Shown piece after piece: positions 46,790 to 56,097 of a stretch of DNA of 64,000 nt. The position numbers were made by a program, and so were the translations under genes. This DNA is from Chitinophagales bacterium. Lineage in GTDB: Bacteria > Bacteroidota > Bacteroidia > Chitinophagales > CAIOSU01. A model generated the notes under the pieces. The model saw only the letters and a program-made list of their open reading frames with translations. It ran no database searches and was not told the DNA's origin. Every line of letters begins with the position of its first letter. Within the stretch, counting starts at the first letter, position 1. The stretch covers positions 186,001 to 250,000 of the forward strand of contig BPHB01000002.1 in the NCBI GenBank assembly GCA_026003335.1. Reading direction: 5' to 3'.

Positions 46790-46805
46790 TACCTAAGCTT
46801 AGGTA
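46790..46805. promoter_or_regulatory. Palindromic operator over the DUF4856 promoter
   Basis: TACCTAAGCTTAGGTA is a perfect 16-base palindrome. TTG follows at 46806-46808 as a -33 element and TATCTTGC at 46829-46836 as a -7-like element, with a 20-base spacer, 30 bases before the ATG at 46867. A repressor bound here would cover the -33 region. The same arrangement occurs at 50065-50080, before the imelysin gene. The regulator is not known; half-sites CCTAA/TTAGG are inverted relative to a classic DtxR box. Confidence 0.65.
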
Positions 46806-46866: not shown

Positions 46867-47976
46867 ATGCAAATAAACTTTCACCAACTTTCATTCTTTT
46901 TTTATGTGATGGGTATGCTCCTTGCGCTTCCTTCCTGTGAAAAACAGGATGACCCTGGGGAGAAACCATACGCAATCCCTTCAACCTACACGTTCACGGA
47001 TGCTATGGGTAACAGCACCGTGGATTATGCCGGACAAACCCAGCGCCTGAACATGGTTGCCGAAATAGTAACCTACCTGAAAACAGCCAACACACCGGGA
47101 GTAAGACTGGATGCTCAAAAGCTCAGGGATATGTATCGCAATGCAGGAAACCCCTTTACAGACAACAGTCTGAATAACTCTGGCAAGCAGATTAAAGACA
47201 AAGTTTTTGCTCCTGACCAGCAGCTGTTTGAACAATACTTTGACAGCATCGCAGCAGCCAGCCAATCCGATTCACCCGCAACCGTTGGCAGAGCAGGTGT
47301 AGGCACCAGCGGCAGCAGCAACTACCTTTTTTCTGCGCGGGGCATGGAATATACCCAGCTTATAGAAAAAGGACTCATGGGTGCCTTGATGTATTATCAG
47401 GCTACAGGCGTGTACCTGGATACGGATAAGATGAATGCCGACAATTCCACTCCTGTAAGCGGAAAGTTTTATACCGAGATGGAACATCACTGGGATGAAG
47501 CTTTTGGATACTTCGGAGTTCCCTTTGATTTCCCGACCAATACTACCGGAATGCGCTTCTGCGGAAAATACTGCAACGACCGGGATGCTCTGCTGGGTAC
47601 TAATAAAATTATGCAGGCATTTATAAAAGGACGTGCGGCAATCAGCAACAAGGATATGAAAACCCGTGATGAGCAGATTATTTTGATCCGGGAATTATGG
47701 GAGAAGGTAATGGCCGGCACAGCTGTGCACTACCTGAATGGTGCGAAAAATACTTTCACCGATGATGTACTCCGTAATCATCAGCTCTCAGAAGCCTATG
47801 CTTTTATTATGTCATTAAAATATAATCCCGCTAGAAAGGTGAGCATGCAGCAGATAGAAAACTGGCTTGCCCAAATTGGCGATAATTTTTACGAGGTAAC
47901 CCTGAGTAGTATCGTTTCCGTACGGGATGAAATTGCCGCAGCATATGGTTTTGAAAACGTAAAAGAGCAGCTGTAG
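46867..47976 (+). CDS. DUF4856 family lipoprotein
   Basis: 369 residues. Signal peptide with lipobox ALPSC (Cys at residue 24), so it is membrane-anchored on the periplasmic side or surface. The mature part starts YAIPSTYTFTDAMGNSTVDY and has the family landmark MEHHWDEAFGYFG near 205, followed by a cysteine pair (FCGKYCND). It is distantly related to imelysin-type helical bundles and usually found beside imelysin and TonB-receptor genes in Bacteroidota. A role in metal, probably iron, capture is inferred from that company and the shared operator. It converges on the T9SS gene across a strong terminator. Confidence 0.85.
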   Translation: MQINFHQLSFFFYVMGMLLALPSCEKQDDPGEKPYAIPSTYTFTDAMGNSTVDYAGQTQRLNMVAEIVTYLKTANTPGVRLDAQKLRDMYRNAGNPFTDNSLNNSGKQIKDKVFAPDQQLFEQYFDSIAAASQSDSPATVGRAGVGTSGSSNYLFSARGMEYTQLIEKGLMGALMYYQATGVYLDTDKMNADNSTPVSGKFYTEMEHHWDEAFGYFGVPFDFPTNTTGMRFCGKYCNDRDALLGTNKIMQAFIKGRAAISNKDMKTRDEQIILIRELWEKVMAGTAVHYLNGAKNTFTDDVLRNHQLSEAYAFIMSLKYNPARKVSMQQIENWLAQIGDNFYEVTLSSIVSVRDEIAAAYGFENVKEQL

Positions 47977-48006
47977 CATTGCCGGCTTCGCTTACCTCTT
48001 TAAAAC

Positions 48007-48041
48007 AAAATCCGCCCCTGAAGTTTCAGGGGCGGATTTTT
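48007..48041. terminator. Bidirectional intrinsic terminator
   Basis: A 16-base stem (48007-48022 paired with 48025-48040) with GC-rich core CCGCCCCTGAA and very short loop, flanked by A-run on the left and T-run on the right, so it works for transcripts in both directions. It sits between the convergent DUF4856 gene (ending 47976) and the T9SS cargo gene (ending 48063). It is the clearest terminator in the window. Confidence 0.9.
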
Positions 48042-48062
48042 ACAATGCGGGCGTAATGTACC

Positions 48063-49943
48063 TTATTTTATCAGCATCAGCTTCCTGTAGTGTGCCTGCC
48101 CGTTATCCGTAACAATGCGGTAAAAATACAGCCCGGCCGGCATGTCTTTGCCGTTGAGGTTAAAACGATACGCCTTGCTGGCTTCTGCCACTCCCTCAAA
48201 CAAGGAAACCACTATACGTCCCTCCGCAGTAACAATATCCGCACGCACCTTTCCGGTAGTCTCTGTCTGAAATGTTACCGTGGCATACCGTTCAAAAGGA
48301 TTAGGATAGGCCAGCATTATAAAACCTGGGCTGACTTGCTCCGGAGTGAACAGGTTTGCTGCAAGCTCTCTCTTGGATGCACAGGAGTCAATTCCGATAT
48401 GAACCATATCTGTTTTTTGACATCCATGCATATCCGTTACGGTAAACTCATATATTCCCGGACAAAGACCAGTCAGCATATCGCTGCCTGAGCCATTACT
48501 CCATGTGATCGTGTAAGGAGCAACACCGCCTGAGGCAACAACAGCCGCTGTGCCGTTGCAAATGGTGTCAACCGGACAATCCAGATTAAGGCGAACTGCC
48601 CCGGATTTCGGATAACAAATCTCCAGTTTGCTGGTATTTTGTGCATGCATCATAACAGTTTGTACACTGGCATTACCTAAATTCAGAATAGGGGCAGACG
48701 CAATGACGTTACCTGCAGAATCATACGCTGTGGCCACCCCTCCATCTTCTTCACTGTCCAGAAACAAAAAGCTGGTCACGGTTACCGGTGAAGCAAATGT
48801 AAAGATGAGACATCCTCCGTTCTGAGAATCATCTGGTCCGAGTCCATCCCCGTCATTATTGTTTTTCTTTTCATCTATGATAATGACGTTACCTACGCCA
48901 AGATTCAAATCGGGGTCTTCGGTCCATGAGCCATCCGTATCGTATATAACCGCATTGTGGGTAGATTGCGGTCCTCCCGGTAGAATAGAAATAGTTGCCC
49001 CGATTCCAGCAAAATAATTATTTACCAAAGTTCCATGCCCCAGACCGGAAATATCAAAATTCTGACAAATGCTATTGTGATCCGGACATACCGTTACATT
49101 GGTATGAAAGACAGAAATCTGCAACTCCGGATTGCCGGCTATCTGCAGTGAACCGCTGGCGGAACATCCGTTAGCATCGGTAACGGTGAGCGTGTATGCT
49201 CCAGCACATAAGCCGTTGAGGGCATCTGTGGTTTCCCCGTTGCTCCATATAAAAGTATAGGGGGCCTGACCTCCGCTTACCGCAGCCTGAGCTGACCCCG
49301 TGCAGAGACCACATAAGTCATCCTCCTTGTTTAAGGTAAGACTGATGGATGGACATCCTACCGGGCATGACAACAATGCGGGATTTACCGCTATTCCATC
49401 TACGAAACTTTCATTAATGGAAGAAACAATACTGTTCAACGCGCTGATGGAATACGTAGTGGCACAGCCACCGAGGGCTTTATTGGCTTCATCCAGCACC
49501 TGCTGAACCGTCATGCCGGTAAATGTGCCGCTGTTGATGATCGCTGAACCCAGCGGTGTTGAAGACAAACCAAAATTGGGATCAAACGCATCAAAGCCTA
49601 CTGAAAGAGCAAGAGCAGCCACCTGGCCGGCAAAGGTATTATTATATCCGGAGCCAGGATTTACCAGGTTTGATGTTAGGGCCCTGGGTTGCCCCCCGGA
49701 AGGTAAAAAGCTTGTTACCGCCTGTGCTGAAGTCAGTTTGAGTGTATAACCCGATTGACACCCAATACTGAGACCTGCCGGAAAAGCCGCGGCAAAATGA
49801 GTATGGAGGTATTTGCCCGGGTTGTTCCCTTTAGGCGGGGCTCCCCATCCTCCCATGGTCTGAGTTCTAAGCTGGCAATTCTGGGAGAAGGCAGCGGAGG
49901 AGAGTATCAGGACAACCGTTAAAGAGAGAATAAGCTGTTTCAT
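48063..49943 (-). CDS. Secreted protein with SprB repeats and T9SS type A sorting domain
   Basis: 626 residues from the ATG at 49943 (earlier in-frame ATG at 50063 would place a 40-residue extension before the signal peptide). Signal peptide QLILSLTVVLILSSAAFSQ. Two SprB-like repeats, near 235-290 (CTGSAQAAVSGGQAPYTFIW) and 460-520 (AAVVASGGVAPYTITWSNG), each ending CSA/CQK after a VTDxxGC motif. The C-terminal ~80 residues (LAYPNPFERYATVTFQTE, GLYFYRIVTDNG) are a T9SS type A tail. It is likely exported and attached to the surface. It sits oppositely oriented inside the imelysin locus. Function of the middle part is unknown. Confidence 0.85.
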   Translation of the reverse strand: MKQLILSLTVVLILSSAAFSQNCQLRTQTMGGWGAPPKGNNPGKYLHTHFAAAFPAGLSIGCQSGYTLKLTSAQAVTSFLPSGGQPRALTSNLVNPGSGYNNTFAGQVAALALSVGFDAFDPNFGLSSTPLGSAIINSGTFTGMTVQQVLDEANKALGGCATTYSISALNSIVSSINESFVDGIAVNPALLSCPVGCPSISLTLNKEDDLCGLCTGSAQAAVSGGQAPYTFIWSNGETTDALNGLCAGAYTLTVTDANGCSASGSLQIAGNPELQISVFHTNVTVCPDHNSICQNFDISGLGHGTLVNNYFAGIGATISILPGGPQSTHNAVIYDTDGSWTEDPDLNLGVGNVIIIDEKKNNNDGDGLGPDDSQNGGCLIFTFASPVTVTSFLFLDSEEDGGVATAYDSAGNVIASAPILNLGNASVQTVMMHAQNTSKLEICYPKSGAVRLNLDCPVDTICNGTAAVVASGGVAPYTITWSNGSGSDMLTGLCPGIYEFTVTDMHGCQKTDMVHIGIDSCASKRELAANLFTPEQVSPGFIMLAYPNPFERYATVTFQTETTGKVRADIVTAEGRIVVSLFEGVAEASKAYRFNLNGKDMPAGLYFYRIVTDNGQAHYRKLMLIK

Positions 49944-50064
49944 AAAGACAGGATTGTTATTATGTGTTGAATTAATAAGCCCAAAGTGGTATTTGTTAAC
50001 TGTGAAGTCAATTTTTTTTTTGGAGGATGCAAAATGCCTAAACAGAGTTTGATGATACTTCATT

Positions 50065-50080
50065 TACCTAACCATAGGTA
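50065..50080. promoter_or_regulatory. Palindromic operator over the imelysin promoter
   Basis: TACCTA-ACCA-TAGGTA, arms identical to the operator at 46790-46805 with a changed centre. TTG at 50081-50083 and TATCTTGC at 50105-50112 repeat the -33/-7 arrangement (21-base spacer). It lies in the gap between the divergent T9SS gene and the imelysin gene (220 bases, 49944-50163). The flanking bases also match (TTACCTAA...TAGGTATTG). Confidence 0.65.
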
Positions 50081-50163
50081 TTGCCACAAAGCATACGATA
50101 ACTTTATCTTGCACGTCCTCGTAGGGGGATTCGGTCTTTATCAGATTTTCCCCTTCCCAAGTT

Positions 50164-51279
50164 ATGCAAATGCCCGACAGATATTGTGTAATGCTGCTTA
50201 TCCTGTTGCTGAGCCTGCAGGGATGTGACAAAGATCAGGGAAATCGCACGCCTTCATCCGCTGACCGCAGAAACATGCTGGAAAACTATGCCACGCATCT
50301 GATCATTCCGGCATACCAAAGTCTTAAGGCACAAGCCGACAGACTGAAGACGATGACAGATACCTTTGCCACCAACCCCGATCTTCAGTCCCTGGATACT
50401 CTTCAGCATGCATTCGTTGAAGCCTACCAGGCCTGGCAGGCTGCCGAAGTATTTGAACTGGGGCCTGCCCGGGATATGCTCTTACGCAGTTCCCTGAACA
50501 CTTTTCCCACAGATACCACACTTATAGGCAATAACATCCGAAACGGCAGTTACAACCTGGACGCAGCTCCCAATTTCAAAGCAAAAGGTTTTCCTGCCCT
50601 TGACTATCTTCTCTTTGGCCTTGGCGCAGACAACTTATTGATTTTATCCTTCTACACAACTGATGCCTATGCTTCAGGGAGGTTAAACTATCTTAAAGAT
50701 GTGGCCGGTGAAATCAAAACAAAAACCGATGCCGTACTGAATGCGTGGCTGCAGGGATATGCAGAAACTTTTAAAAACGCAGACGGCACCGATGCCGGTA
50801 GTTCCATAGCTTTGCTGGTGAATGAATTAAACTACACCTGGGAACTGACTAAAAACGCACGCATTGGTATCCCGCTGGGTAAAAAATCCCTGAACGTACC
50901 GCTGCCGGAAAAAACCGAAGCCTACTACAGCGGGCTTTCCCTTGATCTTGCCGTGTTGAACATGATGCAAATCCAACGTGTTTTCACCGGCGAATCGGCT
51001 TCGGGCATAGCGCAGGGCCCCGGCTTGAAAGCCTATCTGGACAAGCTGGAGGCTAAACATTCCGGCAAGCTTTTGTCCGATACCATTCTTGCCCAGATTA
51101 ATCATGCCATCGCCAGTACCCTGCTCATTCCCAATCCGCTATCAGAGGCTGTTGTCCAAAACCCGCAAGCCGTGGATGATGCCTACCGGGAAATTCAAAA
51201 AACTGTTGTGTTGCTTAAAACGGATATGCCCTCCGTGATGGGTATTCTGATTACCTATCAGGATTCTGATGGTGACTGA
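50164..51279 (+). CDS. Imelysin-family lipoprotein with altered metal motif
   Basis: 371 residues. Lipobox SLQGC with Cys at residue 21 (ATG at 50164; a second ATG two codons later). The body is a helical bundle of the imelysin/Irp type, proteins made under iron limitation in several bacteria. The family's GxHxxE motif reads GFPALDYLLFG here (about 142-152): His is Pro and Glu is Asp. This form is shared by a subset of Bacteroidota imelysin-like proteins, so they may not use that motif for metal. First gene of an apparent operon with the HTTM enzyme and TonB receptor. Confidence 0.9.
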   Translation: MQMPDRYCVMLLILLLSLQGCDKDQGNRTPSSADRRNMLENYATHLIIPAYQSLKAQADRLKTMTDTFATNPDLQSLDTLQHAFVEAYQAWQAAEVFELGPARDMLLRSSLNTFPTDTTLIGNNIRNGSYNLDAAPNFKAKGFPALDYLLFGLGADNLLILSFYTTDAYASGRLNYLKDVAGEIKTKTDAVLNAWLQGYAETFKNADGTDAGSSIALLVNELNYTWELTKNARIGIPLGKKSLNVPLPEKTEAYYSGLSLDLAVLNMMQIQRVFTGESASGIAQGPGLKAYLDKLEAKHSGKLLSDTILAQINHAIASTLLIPNPLSEAVVQNPQAVDDAYREIQKTVVLLKTDMPSVMGILITYQDSDGD

Positions 51280-51321
51280 TGAAAGCGATGGCTTGCCGGA
51301 TCAAGAAACCAGAGTTTCGGG

Positions 51322-52803
51322 ATGAAAGATAAACACAGACAGCAGCCCCGCGTGAAAAGACTCTTGCTTCTTCTCAGACAACAAAAGGTAAAAAATCTTG
51401 CAGACTTTATATCACAAAACGTTTCCATAGCTCCCCTTGCGGTTTTCCGGATACTTTTTGGGGCAGTGATGCTCATGAGCATCATCCGTTTTGCCTTGAA
51501 CGGCTGGATTGAAACGCAATTCATCCAACCCACCTTTTATTTTCCCTACTATGGCTTTGACTGGGTACAACCCCTGGGCAAACCAGGCACCTACCTGTTG
51601 TTTACCGTTATGGGGATTTCAGCCTGCATGATCATGCTGGGGTGGTATTACAAGCTATTCAGTGTGCTCTTTTTTCTCACTTTCACTTATGCCGAGCTGA
51701 TAGATAAAACCAATTATCTCAACCATTACTATTTCATCAGCATTCTTTCCTTCTTGCTTATTCTCCTGCCGGTTCACAGAAGTTTTTCACTGGATGTCCT
51801 GCGCCAACCACACATCCGACTCCCGCATGTTCCACGCTGGATGATTCTGACGCTTCAGCTTCAGGTGGGCATGGTATATTTTTTTGCAGGTATCGCCAAA
51901 TTAAATCCCGACTGGCTGTTTGATGCTTTGCCACTGAAAATCTGGTTGCCCGCCCGGTCAGACATCCCTGTTATCGGCTGGTTATTTGATTATCTATGGG
52001 TTGCCTATGCCATGAGCTGGATGGGTGCCCTGTATGACTTGCTCATTCCTTTTCTGCTTGCATTCCGAAAAACCAGATCTGCCGCTTACCTGCTTGTCAT
52101 CATCTTTCATCTTATGACCGGCATGCTTTTTCAGATTGGCATGTTCCCTTACATTATGATTCTGCTCACTACCATCTTTTTCTCCCCAACATTCCATGAA
52201 AAATTTATTCAAGCACTTCAGGCTCTTATTCCGCAAGGAATTAAAACGGCCTCCGAACCTGGTAAATGTATTCCTGCCGTTGGTGCTAACGATCAAGCAA
52301 CAGCTGGCAGTTATCTGTTAAGAACAAAGGTCGTTAAAGTGATTTTGCTGGGGCATTTTTTCATTCAAGTGCTACTGCCTTTTCGTTATTTGCTCTACCC
52401 GGGCCATTTGTTCTGGACAGAAGAAGGATATCGCTTCTCCTGGCGTGTGATGCTGATGGAAAAGGCAGGCACAGTTTTCTTCTATGTTACAGATCCCGAT
52501 ACGGGCACTACCGATGAGGTGGACCCTTCTGATTATCTGACACCCCAGCAGGAAAAGATGATGTCAACCCAACCGGACATGATTCTGCAGTTTGCCCACT
52601 ATCTGGCTGAGGTTTACAGAAAAAAAGGCATCCGCAATCCTGAGGTGCGGGCACACAGCTATGTTTCGCTGAATGGACGCGGTAGCCGTCCCTATATTAA
52701 CCCCCGGGTGAATCTGGCTGCAGAGAAAGAGAGCTTTAAACCCAAATCATGGATTCTTCCCTTTGAAGAAGATGAAAATAAAGGTATAGCGCGGTATGAA
52801 TAG
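51322..52803 (+). CDS. HTTM-domain, vitamin-K-dependent gamma-carboxylase-like membrane protein
   Basis: 493 residues with about six to eight TM helices in the first 300 and a soluble tail. It follows the human gamma-glutamyl carboxylase pattern: N134-H135 in DKTNYLNHYYF corresponds to the N-H pair, and K193 in FAGIAKLNPDW to the catalytic base lysine. The late motif YPGHLFWTEEGYRFSWRVML is also typical. Bacterial members have no proven substrate. It is placed 42 bases after the imelysin gene and overlaps the TonB-receptor gene by 8 bases, implying a common function with iron-type uptake. Quinone cofactor use is inference. Confidence 0.88.
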   Translation: MKDKHRQQPRVKRLLLLLRQQKVKNLADFISQNVSIAPLAVFRILFGAVMLMSIIRFALNGWIETQFIQPTFYFPYYGFDWVQPLGKPGTYLLFTVMGISACMIMLGWYYKLFSVLFFLTFTYAELIDKTNYLNHYYFISILSFLLILLPVHRSFSLDVLRQPHIRLPHVPRWMILTLQLQVGMVYFFAGIAKLNPDWLFDALPLKIWLPARSDIPVIGWLFDYLWVAYAMSWMGALYDLLIPFLLAFRKTRSAAYLLVIIFHLMTGMLFQIGMFPYIMILLTTIFFSPTFHEKFIQALQALIPQGIKTASEPGKCIPAVGANDQATAGSYLLRTKVVKVILLGHFFIQVLLPFRYLLYPGHLFWTEEGYRFSWRVMLMEKAGTVFFYVTDPDTGTTDEVDPSDYLTPQQEKMMSTQPDMILQFAHYLAEVYRKKGIRNPEVRAHSYVSLNGRGSRPYINPRVNLAAEKESFKPKSWILPFEEDENKGIARYE

Positions 52804-55255
52804 GTTGCGTATTTTTTTACAGGCCATCAAAAAATATGTCATCGGGATTATGGGCATCCTATTGTTGGGTCTGTTTAGTCCTGCAAGGGGGCAGAGTCTT
52901 TCTGTGTACGGGCTGGTGACCGATCGCCAAAGCGGTGTGGCTCTGGAAGGGGCGTATGTTGTTGTGGACTCTCTGAACCACCACACTACTACAGACCCAA
53001 GCGGTAAGTTTAAAATTGAAGGCCTCCTGCCAGGAGAGTACACGCTGTTGGTCAGCCATCTTGGTATGCAGCCGGTTCTCAAAAAAATTCATTTGCATGG
53101 GAAATCCGTGCAGGTGAATATTGAAATGGACTCCCTGATAAAGACTCTTTCCGAAATCACGATTAACAGCAGGCCTACAAACCAGATAAGCGCTGGCTTT
53201 CTTAACAACATTGAAGGCACCTCTATTTATGCAGGGAAAAAAACCGAGGTGATACGGGTCGGAGAAACCTGCGCCAACCTGGCATCCAATAATAGCCGCC
53301 AGATTTATGGACGCATTGCCGGACTTAATATTTGGGAGAGTGATGCCGGTGGCCTCCAACTGGGCATTGGCGGCCGGGGGCTGAGCCCTCACCGCACCAG
53401 CAACTTCAACACCCGCCAAAACGGCTACGACATCAGCGCTGACGCCCTGGGCTATCCCGAAAGTTATTACACCCCTCCTGCAGAGGCTATAGAACGGATA
53501 GAACTGATACGTGGAGCTGCGTCACTGCAGTACGGAACGCAATTTGGGGGAATGCTGAATTTCACACTCAAAACTCCTCCTACCGATAAGGTATTTTCAT
53601 TTGAGACGAGAAATACTGCAGGCTCCTACGGCTTTTTCAGCAGCTTCACCAGCCTGGGAGGTACCAAAAAGAATTTCAGCTATTATGGATTCTACCAATA
53701 CAAAAGAGGCAACGGCTGGCGTGAAAACAGCGCTTTTACATCTCATACGGCTTATCTGAGTCTTTCTTACCGAATACATCCGAAGCTGAAAGTGCAGGCC
53801 GATTACACACTCGCCCGATATCTTCAGCGGCAGCCTGGTGGACTCACTGACGCACAGTTTCAGGAAAATCCCCGTCAATCCACCCGCGAGCGCAACTGGT
53901 TTCAGATTAAATGGAACATACCCGTGTTGATGGCCCAGTATGACATTTCACCCAATACCAAAGCCGACCTGCGAACCTTTGCGCTTATAGGTGAGCGCAA
54001 CGCCCTCGGATTTCTGGGAACACCCAACCGGGCTGATCCAATGGAGGAAAGAGACCTCATTTCCACTCAATTCCGTAACTGGGGGAGCGAACTACGATTA
54101 CTGCATCGCTATACACTTTCAGGGAATTACTCGGCTCTCCTGACCGGAGTGCGTCTGTACCAAGGCAAAACACATAACAAACAAGGCATGGCTGATGACG
54201 GATATGATGCAGACTTTCACTTCCTGTCAGGCAATGAAAACATCCTGAACGCACATGACTTCCCCAGTTTTAATGCTGCATTATTTGCCGAAAACATCTT
54301 TGCCGTATCAAAAAAGTTTACCATTACTCCGGGAATGCGGATCGAATATATCAGCACACTTTCAAAGGGCTTTTTTGTTGAAGTCAACTCTGATCTGGCA
54401 GGAAACGAAATATCCCGACAGACATTTAACGACAGTCAGAAAAACCAACGGGTTTTCATTCTTGGTGGCATCGGCATGAGTTACAAGCATCGCCCGGAGG
54501 CAGAGTTTTATGCAAATTTGTCGCAGAACTACCGGGCAATCAACTTCAATGATCTGCGCATAGTAAATCCCAATTTCCGTGTAGATGCTTCCCTGAAAGA
54601 CGAAAAAGGTTTCTCGGCCGACCTGGGAGCCAGAGGAACCCTTAAAAACTGGCTCTATTATGACCTGAGCACATTTGTTATCCGCTATCAGGACAAAATC
54701 GGCTACATATTAAAAGTGGACAGCTCCCTTTTTACGGTGTACAGACTGCGCACCAATGTTGCTGATGCCTATAACTACGGACTGGAATGTGCAACCGACC
54801 TGGACATCCTCAGGGCTATTAATGAAAATTCACCGCATAGCTTATCCCTTTTTGCCAGCTTCACCATCCAGAACGGGGTTTACAAAGACTCGCGCGAACC
54901 GGCTTTTGACGGCAAAAAAGTGGAAATGGTTCCCGGCACGATACTCAGAACGGGAACAACCTATCGCTACAAAACCCTGAAAATGTCTTTGCAATACTCC
55001 TATACTTCACGACACTACACGGATGCAACCAACGCTGAGTTTACTGCAAATGCGGTAAACGGAGTTATACCTGCATACTACGTTATGGATTTCTCTGTAG
55101 AATACGCCTTCAGGAAATGGGTGGCTTTGGCAGCAGGAATCAACAACCTCACCAATAACCGCTATTTCACACGCAGGGCTGACGGCTATCCTGGGCCGGG
55201 CATCATCCCGGCTGATGGCATAACAGCTTACGGCACCCTTATTATTAAACGGTAG
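52796..55255 (+). CDS. TonB-dependent outer-membrane receptor (FecA-like)
   Basis: 819 residues: signal peptide (IGIMGILLLGLFSPARG), a carboxypeptidase-regulatory-like beta domain about 35-115, a plug domain with RIAGLNIWESDAGGLQLGIG and GYPESYYTPPAEAIERIELI then GAASLQYGTQFGGMLNF, and a 22-strand barrel ending with FTRRADGYPGPGI...LIIKR. The plug wording is close to ferric-citrate-type (FecA) receptors. It imports a chelated metal powered by TonB-ExbBD. No SusD partner is present, which separates it from glycan receptors. Its ATG overlaps the HTTM stop by 8 bases. The ligand is not determined. Confidence 0.93.
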   Translation: MNRLRIFLQAIKKYVIGIMGILLLGLFSPARGQSLSVYGLVTDRQSGVALEGAYVVVDSLNHHTTTDPSGKFKIEGLLPGEYTLLVSHLGMQPVLKKIHLHGKSVQVNIEMDSLIKTLSEITINSRPTNQISAGFLNNIEGTSIYAGKKTEVIRVGETCANLASNNSRQIYGRIAGLNIWESDAGGLQLGIGGRGLSPHRTSNFNTRQNGYDISADALGYPESYYTPPAEAIERIELIRGAASLQYGTQFGGMLNFTLKTPPTDKVFSFETRNTAGSYGFFSSFTSLGGTKKNFSYYGFYQYKRGNGWRENSAFTSHTAYLSLSYRIHPKLKVQADYTLARYLQRQPGGLTDAQFQENPRQSTRERNWFQIKWNIPVLMAQYDISPNTKADLRTFALIGERNALGFLGTPNRADPMEERDLISTQFRNWGSELRLLHRYTLSGNYSALLTGVRLYQGKTHNKQGMADDGYDADFHFLSGNENILNAHDFPSFNAALFAENIFAVSKKFTITPGMRIEYISTLSKGFFVEVNSDLAGNEISRQTFNDSQKNQRVFILGGIGMSYKHRPEAEFYANLSQNYRAINFNDLRIVNPNFRVDASLKDEKGFSADLGARGTLKNWLYYDLSTFVIRYQDKIGYILKVDSSLFTVYRLRTNVADAYNYGLECATDLDILRAINENSPHSLSLFASFTIQNGVYKDSREPAFDGKKVEMVPGTILRTGTTYRYKTLKMSLQYSYTSRHYTDATNAEFTANAVNGVIPAYYVMDFSVEYAFRKWVALAAGINNLTNNRYFTRRADGYPGPGIIPADGITAYGTLIIKR

Positions 55256-55296
55256 GTTCCTTCAGCATCCAGGTACATGTATTTCTCAGTGCATAA

Positions 55297-55332
55297 AAAT
55301 TTATTTTTAGATTTGCCTAAATTTATTTTTAG
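55297..55332 (+). repeat. Direct repeat before the outer-membrane barrel gene
   Basis: AAATTTATTTTTAG occurs at 55297-55310 and again, identically, at 55319-55332, giving a 22-base period (two helical turns), ending 12 bases before the ATG at 55345. The spacer includes TTTGCCTAA, which shares CCTAA with the operators at 46790 and 50065. It may be a tandem regulator site or include the promoter. Confidence 0.5.
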
Positions 55333-55344
55333 CCACACATCAAA

Positions 55345-56097
55345 ATGCATCCGGGAGTTTGGGTTTTTCTCTTCATCACAACTGTGTGCCTAAGGGCTAC
55401 AGCTCAAGACGGGCCAATAGAACCTGACCGCCCCGACCAGTCTGAAAGTGCAGCGCTTGTTCCGCCAAGGCATGTACAGGTTGAAACAGGATTTTCCTTT
55501 GAAAAAGGAAAGGATTTCAAACTTATTACCCACCCTGCTCTGCTCTTACGCTACGGAGCTTCGCGTTACTTTGAGCTACGCCTTGCCCTGGAGGCCCAAT
55601 CCCTCTATGCAACTGGCAGCCATGCCAGCTGGCTATCAGGCTTTGTCCCCCTTGAAATAGGAGTCAAGATCAATCTGGCTACCGGCCAAAAAGCAAAACC
55701 TTCAGCCTCTCTTATTAGCCACCTGATTATTCCTCAGGCTGCCAGTGAGGGGTTTCATAGTCCCTATGTTGGCTGTATATTGCGTTTGGCTATGCAGCAT
55801 GCTTGCACCGAATGGTTTACCCTTAGCTATAATGTAGGAGCTGCATGGGAAGGTGAAAGCGCGGAACCTATTTTCCTCTATACACTTACTGCCGGATTTG
55901 CACTTACTGAATCTTTCGGTGCATTTGCTGAGACGTACGGCTTCTTTCCTCAAAAGGCATCGGCATCGCATCTGTTGGATGGAGGTTTTACCTTTCAGCT
56001 GAAGCCTTTTCTGATGCTGGATATTTCAGGGGGCTGGAATATCACAAACCGGTCTTATTATGCCGGCACCGGATTTTCCATCAGGCTACCGAATTAG
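55345..56097 (+). CDS. Small outer-membrane beta-barrel (phenol/MetA-degradation-pathway-like family)
   Basis: 250 residues with a signal peptide (VWVFLFITTVCLRATAQ) and about twelve amphipathic strands; the conserved N-terminal PDRPDQSESAALVPPRHVQV and the C-terminal aromatic FSIRLPN end fit the family often called transporter or MetA-pathway outer-membrane protein. Its role in other bacteria is unsettled. It lies 89 bases after the TonB receptor and its own promoter region contains a 22-base-period repeat, so it may be regulated with the metal-uptake locus. Not a SusD or porin of known type. Confidence 0.72.
   Translation: MHPGVWVFLFITTVCLRATAQDGPIEPDRPDQSESAALVPPRHVQVETGFSFEKGKDFKLITHPALLLRYGASRYFELRLALEAQSLYATGSHASWLSGFVPLEIGVKINLATGQKAKPSASLISHLIIPQAASEGFHSPYVGCILRLAMQHACTEWFTLSYNVGAAWEGESAEPIFLYTLTAGFALTESFGAFAETYGFFPQKASASHLLDGGFTFQLKPFLMLDISGGWNITNRSYYAGTGFSIRLPN

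Follow-up and report, generated by a model that had tools for sequence, protein, structure and literature searches.

A conserved, apparently iron-controlled operon of Bacteroidota encodes a vitamin K carboxylase homologue and often adjoins an OlsE-like hydroxylase gene where the homologue is missing

A DUF4856 lipoprotein, an imelysin-like lipoprotein, a vitamin K carboxylase homologue (VKGC) and a FecA-like TonB-dependent receptor are encoded, in that order, by a conserved operon carried by many Bacteroidota. Operons of this kind that lack VKGC often adjoin the gene of an OlsE-like membrane hydroxylase (10/15, versus 0/66 of the operons with VKGC), which is the new observation reported here. 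One copy of the operon lies in the window, as we call the whole stretch of 64,000 nucleotides from a Chitinophagales bacterium that was analyzed. The reading that we favour is that a dedicated, O2-dependent enzyme modifies an iron-handling, probably membrane-associated substrate.

All five genes listed for this locus by the initial annotation were found where it had placed them, and their families were confirmed by Pfam searches. The operon opens with the DUF4856 lipoprotein gene (46867..47976, plus strand; PF16148, E = 1.5e-56), whose Cys24 is kept in 75/76 sequences of the alignment column. The list had, however, omitted a minus-strand gene at 48063..50063, which sits between DUF4856 and imelysin and encodes a SprB-repeat, T9SS-sorted surface protein of 666 aa (PF13573, 7.8e-15; PF18962, 1.8e-08). 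This gene is an interruption seen in the window and not part of the system; the DUF4856-imelysin gap is 2187 bases here versus a median of 4 among 61 operons. The imelysin-like lipoprotein (imelysin/Peptidase_M75; 50164..51279, plus strand) carries the domain of the ICMP/IrpA/EfeO type (PF09375, 7.4e-36). It shows GFPALD where the GxHxxE motif is expected and ends in a DGD tail; among 80 operon imelysins the motif glycine is kept in 80 and the DGD terminus in 78, and the histidine position holds another residue in the rows displayed. VKGC (51322..52803, plus strand) follows after 42 bases and overlaps by 8 bases the receptor gene (52796..55255, plus strand; PF00593, PF07715 and, for its CarboxypepD_reg domain, PF13715), both spacings being as first described. 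Against the FecA family NF041676 the receptor scored 77.6 bits (5e-22), far short of the cut-off of 1100. The four genes form the conserved locus, but the small outer-membrane barrel counted as a fifth member (55345..56097, plus strand; PF13557, 2.5e-23) is a neighbour only and lies outside it, because no relative was found in any of the other 107 VKGC loci.

The order DUF4856, imelysin, VKGC, receptor was observed in 61/108 VKGC loci, the window included, in a sample not selected by context, and in 71 of the 80 named loci, which were found by VKGC similarity as the best 80 of 571 relatives and include species of Pontibacter, Pedobacter, Spirosoma and Salegentibacter. An arrangement of four families sharing one order in 61/108 loci is far beyond chance, and the conserved neighbourhood anticipated from the window is borne out across genomes. 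One of the named loci (L228) yielded no VKGC ORF from ORF picking, which opposite-strand ORFs in GC-rich DNA can mislead; by the same error some of the 42 calls of a solo VKGC are possibly wrong, and three of these (L042, L043 and L046) have scores resembling those of enzymes from the operon. The VKGC and receptor genes overlap in 56/66 operons, the median gaps being -1 between imelysin and VKGC and -11 between VKGC and receptor. That the operon also exists without VKGC (15 loci) could suggest an otherwise ordinary imelysin/TonB locus in which VKGC is a mere passenger, unrelated or degenerate. Yet the active site of VKGC is invariant, the genes overlap and the divergence of VKGC is correlated with that of its partners (distance correlation 0.67-0.78), which makes this explanation highly improbable.

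The protein first described as HTTM/gamma-carboxylase-like does contain HTTM but is a complete VKGC homologue that includes the lumenal domain (PF05090, 1.9e-82; PF22777, 1.9e-58). Human GGCX matches it in a phmmer search (7.1e-53), and its predicted model aligned to GGCX over 437 residues with a rmsd of 3.0 (VIA Z 32.1, the next unrelated row scoring Z 8.2). As had been proposed, the N-H pair and the catalytic lysine are in place: N134-H135 (51721-51726) and K193 (51898-51900) align with human N159-H160 and K218, and the three residues are jointly present in 66/66 operon enzymes. The vitamin K pocket (W198, F262 and F275) is likewise invariant in 66/66, and the Glu-side-chain pocket (N134, H135 and Y370) is retained, its third position being Y or F across the operon enzymes. 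The catalytic set and the predicted fold make the operon VKGC an intact-looking relative of the human enzyme and a putative vitamin K-dependent Glu carboxylase. It differs from GGCX in that it stops near human residue 520 and has neither the Arch nor the C-terminal part of the clamp that binds the propeptide. The full clamp (PBD-1/PBD-2) and the contact residues of the vertebrate-type, propeptide-directed carboxylase were not found; the equivalents of Y425, R436 and N158 are unconserved, N158 being replaced by L, K217 by A, R436 by M or Q, and Y425 by E in 35/66.

The initial annotation had suggested that Glu residues of imelysin or the receptor might be carboxylated by VKGC, the resulting gamma-carboxyglutamate (Gla) providing added metal-binding sites, and we considered this proposal for both lipoproteins and the receptor. 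Strict linkage with overlapping genes, the retained Glu-side-chain pocket and the passage of the receptor and both lipoproteins by the periplasmic face are consistent with it. However, when the partner proteins were screened for Glu positions lost together with VKGC, none was found: where Glu is present in at least 60% of the VKGC operons, its frequency never fell below 0.2 without VKGC, the largest drops being imelysin E343 (0.74 to 0.27) and receptor E233 (0.62 to 0.23). The conserved Glu columns are largely retained in the 13-15 operons that lack VKGC, and overall Glu content is equal with and without it. Together with the loss of the human backbone and propeptide contacts, and with the tendency of an unrelated hydroxylase, not expected to form Gla, to take the place of VKGC, this leaves Gla on the lipoproteins or the receptor not supported by these sequence comparisons, and we regard that proposal as rather doubtful.

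Two other leads on the substrate were dropped. A linker motif of the receptor (FG, then VEG.AIYAGKKTEV) appeared to correlate with VKGC, but FG is missing in the VKGC-positive L053 and L081, which are relatives of one family. A precursor peptide was rejected because the median gaps given above are too small; this search covered the gene gaps within the operon and, outside it, ORFs of at least 90 aa. Other families recurring beside VKGC operons were few and resembled local synteny.

The VKGC-less operons were examined among 20 DUF4856 loci without a linked VKGC, of which the 15 with DUF4856 and imelysin were counted; L147, L149, L150, L163 and L164 were left aside as contig fragments or for want of an adjoining imelysin. 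Six more DUF4856 matches without a linked VKGC, mostly weak, remained uncounted and none shows the hydroxylase; one of them (L269) is a DUF4856-imelysin contig end in a genome with VKGC elsewhere, and the other five are without a visible imelysin. The nearest named family of the hydroxylase is the ornithine lipid hydroxylase OlsE (NF052566; E 2e-14 to 2.8e-13 in 3/3 proteins scanned), although at no more than 53.6 bits it stays far below the cut-off of 475. With at most seven candidates scored per genome and a self-chosen cut-off of 1e-40, the hydroxylase was found in 14 of 17 DUF4856-bearing genomes without VKGC versus 2 of 55 with it (72 in total), and its subfamily in 0/224 genomes without DUF4856. 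In a sample of the phylum it was found in 0/392 genomes, which shows little, as at most five candidates were scored per genome and without a positive control. VKGC and the hydroxylase are nearly mutually exclusive in these operons, and we infer that they would be functional alternatives.

Could this exclusion be a lineage effect, in which a few clades lost VKGC and an ordinary fatty-acid hydroxylase happens to remain adjacent? Independent switches number only about seven. Across them the hydroxylase changed opposite to VKGC in 5-7 and in the same way in 0, so that the exclusion is modestly significant after correction for descent (median p 0.03, range 0.016-0.063); for adjacency alone there were 4 opposite, 0 the same and 3 ties (p 0.125). 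A smaller flanking family (4 loci) is likewise confined to VKGC-less loci. On the other hand, a lineage effect fits poorly with the absence of the subfamily from genomes without DUF4856, with the three distinct arrangements in which the hydroxylase occurs, with a swap inside one genus (G017, G094 and G150 versus G123 and G174) and with 7/7 further loci that agree with the exclusion, and we consider it quite unlikely.

The hydroxylase that tends to replace VKGC comes from a superfamily of membrane oxygenases that depend on O2, which suggests another possibility: VKGC might act as a menaquinol oxygenase, and what counts would then be the epoxidation half-reaction, its oxidised quinone product or the consumption of O2, with carboxylation as a side reaction. 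The invariant vitamin K pocket and the presence of MenA in the window genome agree with such a role. Against it stand N134 and H135 of the Glu pocket, invariant in 66/66, and the result for VKOR, for which no PF07884 match was found in the window genome; an epoxide product would consequently be without a known recycling route, and a VKOR-dependent vitamin K cycle is not apparent there. We deem this role unlikely. VKOR co-occurrence was dropped as a sign of a vitamin K cycle, since VKOR was present in 8/81 VKGC genomes versus 17/215 others.

The iron link suggested for the locus holds at the level of the family. A Fur box, defined as at least 16 of 19 matches to the published consensus, precedes 107/151 operons versus 38/891 control ORFs, and the operon family is apparently iron-controlled. 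Before the operon of the window no Fur box was found, the best site matching 11 of 19 positions with 0 matches within 3 mismatches. A perfect palindrome, TACCTAAGCTTAGGTA, lies upstream of DUF4856 (46790..46805) as a putative operator for an iron regulator, and a second copy, TACCTAACCATAGGTA, upstream of imelysin (50065..50080); these are the only two exact matches to TACCTAANNWTAGGTA in the window genome. A copy with one mismatch lies 54 bases upstream of feoA-feoB, and 3 of the 4 sites with at most one mismatch precede the window locus or feoAB, while by number the palindrome shows no excess over a reversed-pattern control (8 strand-matches versus 5). In Riemerella anatipestifer, RAYM_09779-09794 comprise a TonB receptor, VKGC, imelysin and a hypothetical protein in identical order, and all four genes had ratios of 2.1-3.1 under low iron (PMC5609570, Table 4); judging from gene order, the hypothetical protein is presumably DUF4856. 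The iron link was not wholly undescribed: the iron/Fur response of these genes was already tabulated in that Fur study, whose cited part does not discuss their role (PMC5609570). None of the three findings that would have refuted the idea according to the initial annotation was made: the neighbourhood is conserved, the lysine is invariant in 66/66 and the four genes are tabulated as iron-responsive in Riemerella.

We consider it probable that the locus serves the uptake of iron under starvation and that VKGC modifies a component which this system needs. The FecA-like receptor and the DUF4856 and imelysin lipoproteins would capture and import an iron chelate, and VKGC would be a dedicated inner-membrane enzyme with its active site towards the periplasm, using menaquinol, O2 and CO2. 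The operon itself, the iron-type operators upstream, the Lys/Asn/His set, the predicted GGCX fold and the near mutual exclusion with the hydroxylase speak for such a mechanism. If either enzyme can stand in for the other, the substrate would more likely be an amphiphilic iron ligand or an amino-acid membrane lipid than a fixed partner Glu, a proposal that we hold tentatively and with less than even confidence. A more specific version, which we think unlikely, is that the operon has one membrane-enzyme slot, filled by VKGC or by the OlsE-like di-iron hydroxylase, each adding a chelating carboxylate or hydroxyl to the same amphiphilic carrier or lipid head group that DUF4856, imelysin and the TonB receptor handle. 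Several observations count against the mechanism. The kept Glu pocket (N, H, Y/F) favours Glu carboxylation; most hydroxylase genes are not preceded by their own Fur box (12/16 score 13 or less), and in 6/16 genomes they lie away from the operon; and two genomes that have VKGC also encode a hydroxylase, though an outlying one. Genome G196 has DUF4856 and imelysin, with no receptor found in the locus and neither VKGC nor hydroxylase. G148 lacks the hydroxylase as well, and its operon is without VKGC although three unlinked copies of the gene are present.

The fold of DUF4856 gave no indication of function. Its AF2 model (pLDDT 94.8) had no match in the PDB by Foldseek at E 0.001, and the best VIA score, Z 7.4 to an alpha-catenin domain, was set aside as helical bundles reach such values by chance; the imelysin structure 3n8u scored Z 4.3.

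The glutamyl carboxylase homologue of Leptospira reportedly has altered activity. Like the enzyme of the window it is a bacterial VKGC homologue; it is thought to have been acquired by transfer and, in the cited part of the source, is without an assigned role (PMC4555120). The imelysin-like lipoprotein is shared with the EfeUOB-type iron-uptake operons, described in the cited part of their source as iron-regulated and in some cases equipped with outer-membrane components (Xu et al. 2011, PMC3143127). Unlike them, the window locus has GFPALD in place of GxHxxE, a profile search of its six proteins found no match to EfeU or the EfeB/DUF1111 peroxidase, and the operon adds DUF4856 and VKGC or the hydroxylase. 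We found no role assigned to bacterial vitamin K carboxylase homologues in the open-licence literature searched. One class of these enzymes belongs to an operon of many culturable Bacteroidota that is closely conserved and, it appears, controlled by iron. The natural losses of the enzyme, with a candidate replacement, make the role of bacterial VKGC experimentally testable. The operon suggests where Gla-type chemistry may have served outside animals, and if one slot is indeed shared by the two enzymes, this would be the first physiological role of a bacterial VKGC and a use of VKGC chemistry apart from clotting.

The DUF4856 lipoprotein gene (46867-47976, plus strand) is followed by genes for an imelysin lipoprotein (50164-51279), a vitamin-K carboxylase homologue (VKGC, 51322-52803), a TonB receptor (52796-55255) and a PF13557 barrel (55345-56097). 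The genes and domains of the initial annotation were confirmed, but it had left out a minus-strand gene (48063-50063), located between the DUF4856 and imelysin genes, whose 666-aa product carries SprB repeats and a type IX sorting tail. Its "HTTM protein" does carry the HTTM domain (1.9e-82); however, this description was incomplete, as a VKGC lumenal domain (1.9e-58) is also there, and the human enzyme GGCX matches the protein across about 460 residues (7.1e-53). The barrel could not be kept as a member of the locus, being without relative in the other VKGC loci under profile annotation.

DUF4856, imelysin, VKGC and receptor genes form a conserved operon. Among 296 evenly drawn genomes of the window's class, at least 90% complete, 81 contained the lumenal domain in 106 copies, whose surroundings were fetched, together with those of two copies from a same-family genome, and annotated using profiles derived from the proteins of the window. 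The four genes stand in that order on one strand in 61 of these 108 VKGC loci (window included), and in 71 of 80 named loci, the best 80 of 571 relatives in a VKGC similarity search, which include Pontibacter, Hymenobacter, Spirosoma, Pedobacter, Mucilaginibacter, Salegentibacter, Aquimarina and Fodinibius records. Imelysin was present in 65 and the receptor in 66 of the 108 loci; in 56 of the 66, VKGC and receptor genes overlap, and the median imelysin-VKGC gap is -1. In the window 2187 bases separate DUF4856 from imelysin, versus a median of 4 in the 61 operons. In the same-family genome, a related-repeat protein is encoded upstream of DUF4856 instead of inside the operon on the opposite strand, as the SprB-repeat surface protein is here. 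The remaining 42 loci were called "solo" (without imelysin or receptor partners), although three of them (L042, L043 and L046) score like operon enzymes and their partners may be missed by ORF picking.

Concerning the lipoproteins, the very confident AlphaFold model of DUF4856 (pLDDT 94.8) had no Foldseek match in the PDB at E 0.001; residues G144, K168, Y235, H305, E309 and F313 are invariant in 52 sequences. Operon imelysins, VKGC present or not, end in DGD-COOH in 78 of 80 cases (window 51268-51276) and in DxDGD in 62, while of ten other imelysin-like ORFs of the sampled and named loci five have the DGD end and five lack it. A metal-binding or docking tail is possible. The window system works like the imelysin-based iron-uptake operons described in PMC3143127 and belongs near them, but its locus is without peroxidase or EfeU, its imelysin is without the GxHxxE motif, and DUF4856 and VKGC come in addition. 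In the open-licence PMC literature no paper was found on the role of the four-gene operon, nor any containing the term DUF4856.

In Table 4 of a Riemerella anatipestifer Fur study (PMC5609570), the low-iron/iron-replete ratios are 2.11 for TonB receptor RAYM_09779, 2.64 for vitamin K-dependent gamma-carboxylase RAYM_09784, 3.07 for imelysin RAYM_09789 and 2.41 for hypothetical RAYM_09794. Of 151 operons (136 with VKGC, 15 without), 107 have before DUF4856 a Fur box that agrees with the published consensus ATTTAGAATTATTCTAAAT in at least 16 of its 19 positions, compared with 38 of 891 other ORFs of the same loci. The window departs from this: the best score upstream of DUF4856 was 11/19, and no box within three mismatches was found anywhere. 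The place where relatives carry the Fur box is occupied by a palindrome, TACCTAA..TTAGGTA (46790-46805), with a second copy before imelysin (50065-50080); these are the only two exact TACCTAANNWTAGGTA matches in the 3.9 Mb genome, which has one Fur-family gene. Two further sites have one mismatch, one before a ribosomal protein L19 gene and the other 54 bases upstream of feoA-feoB (PF04023, 2.8e-16; PF02421, 1.4e-50) at 1501-1516 of L258, the feoAB locus. Genome counts are not above control (8 strand-matches versus 5 for the reversed pattern); within the window, a count of four at two mismatches compares with 0.59 expected and is reached in 2 of 100 shuffles. It is the placement of the palindromes, not their number, that suggests an iron operator, and each half of the interrupted operon would have its own.

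The operon enzyme is a VKGC family member by its domains, residues and predicted fold: for the window protein, the AlphaFold model (pLDDT 86) can be superposed on 437 residues of GGCX at Z 32.1. Equivalents of human K218, N159 and H160 are invariant in 66 operon enzymes, bearing out the catalytic lysine that the initial annotation had pointed to, and so are those of the vitamin-K pocket residues W223, F286 and F299, whereas Y395 is retained in 56 and replaced by F in 10. Judged by these residues the enzyme looks competent. Other positions whose roles in GGCX are described, like those of the pocket set, in PMC12589487 differ: N158 is L in 66/66, K217 is A in 64/66, R436 is M or Q in 65/66 and Y425 is E in 35/66. 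Since the window VKGC ends near human residue 520 in its model, the Arch and the C-terminal part of the propeptide clamp of vertebrate GGCX are absent, and by sequence and model the enzyme does not belong to the propeptide-directed carboxylases of vertebrates. The solo enzymes all keep the catalytic lysine (42/42), but in six of them (L137, L139, L140, L141, L142 and L143) Ser-Tyr replaces Asn-His, which suggests epoxidation without Glu carboxylation. The window's genome encodes MenA. VKOR, the enzyme of the animal vitamin K cycle, was not found there and shows no association with VKGC (in 8/81 genomes with VKGC and 17/215 without), so there is no sign of such a cycle. That the operon VKGC acts as a quinol oxygenase seems rather improbable. 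The window's genome has a second VKGC, a solo one (L118, contig 3, 6316-7896), whose neighbours include a UbiA-family prenyltransferase and glycosyltransferases; neither an imelysin nor a TonB partner was found in its locus. There is also a third, short HTTM protein (L003, contig 1; open frame 313 aa), but the lumenal-domain search recovered only the other two copies.

The DUF4856 family is present in 72 of the 296 genomes. Twenty DUF4856 loci that lack a linked VKGC were fetched, and 15 of them combine DUF4856 with imelysin (13 also with the receptor) and miss VKGC alone; 14 come from genomes without any VKGC and one (G148) has unlinked copies. They are scattered in a tree of the three partners, with six changes, five forced by well-supported branches. 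The initial annotation had proposed that the enzyme makes metal-binding gamma-carboxyglutamate (Gla) on imelysin or the receptor. Were a fixed partner Glu the target, it should be freed once VKGC is lost. However, among the Glu columns that 60% or more of VKGC operons share, none falls below 0.2 where VKGC is missing, and both kinds of operon have the same overall Glu content, so conserved Glu is largely not freed. Two columns do drop, E343 of imelysin (from 0.74 to 0.27) and E233 of the receptor (from 0.62 to 0.23); they would be the strongest candidates under the Gla idea, now unlikely.

Of the 15 VKGC-less operons, 10 have beside them a gene for a member of the fatty-acid hydroxylase superfamily (the three copies scanned matched PF04116), versus none of 66 VKGC operons, and none above 200 bits was found in 79 named VKGC loci. 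In flanking-gene clustering it was the largest family confined to VKGC-less loci; one smaller family (4 loci) was likewise confined to them. A profile built from the ten adjacent copies (A4), searched at E 1e-40, matched 16 of the 296 genomes, none of them among the 224 without DUF4856. VKGC and hydroxylase are near mutually exclusive: among the 72 DUF4856 genomes, 14 of the 17 that lack VKGC altogether have the latter, versus 2 of the 55 that have VKGC (Fisher p 2.5e-10, ignoring descent), these two (G011, G089) being outlying rows of the hydroxylase tree. Corrected for descent, there are seven independent switches. If a hydroxylase at any place in the genome is counted, it changes in the opposite direction in 5-7 of them and never in the same direction (median p 0.03); with adjacent genes only, 4 are opposite, 0 the same and 3 tied (p 0.125). 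Within one genus it occurs in three genomes and VKGC in two, and of seven further DUF4856 loci from another sample, at locus level, four have VKGC without hydroxylase and three the reverse. It adjoins the operon in 10 genomes (upstream on the same strand, upstream divergent, or downstream) and lies apart in 6; upstream Fur-box-like sites do not exceed 13/19 in 12 of 16 copies. It is weakly related to OlsE, and no PDB relative was found by sequence. One VKGC-less locus with the hydroxylase (L263) has several extra imelysin-like ORFs around DUF4856. The hydroxylase is a candidate replacement of VKGC in the operon.

In this iron system, the TonB receptor and the two lipoproteins would capture an iron chelate and import it, and the enzyme of the inner membrane would use O2 to modify something that the system needs. 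The same modification is not to be expected from a VKGC and a hydroxylase; by analogy to the human enzyme the VKGC active site would face the periplasm, whereas the charge pattern of the hydroxylase places its His clusters probably toward the cytoplasm. Different modifications on opposite membrane faces therefore fit a shared membrane-diffusible substrate better than fixed Glu of exported proteins, and we tentatively propose that this substrate may be, for example, an amphiphilic chelator or an amino-acid lipid.
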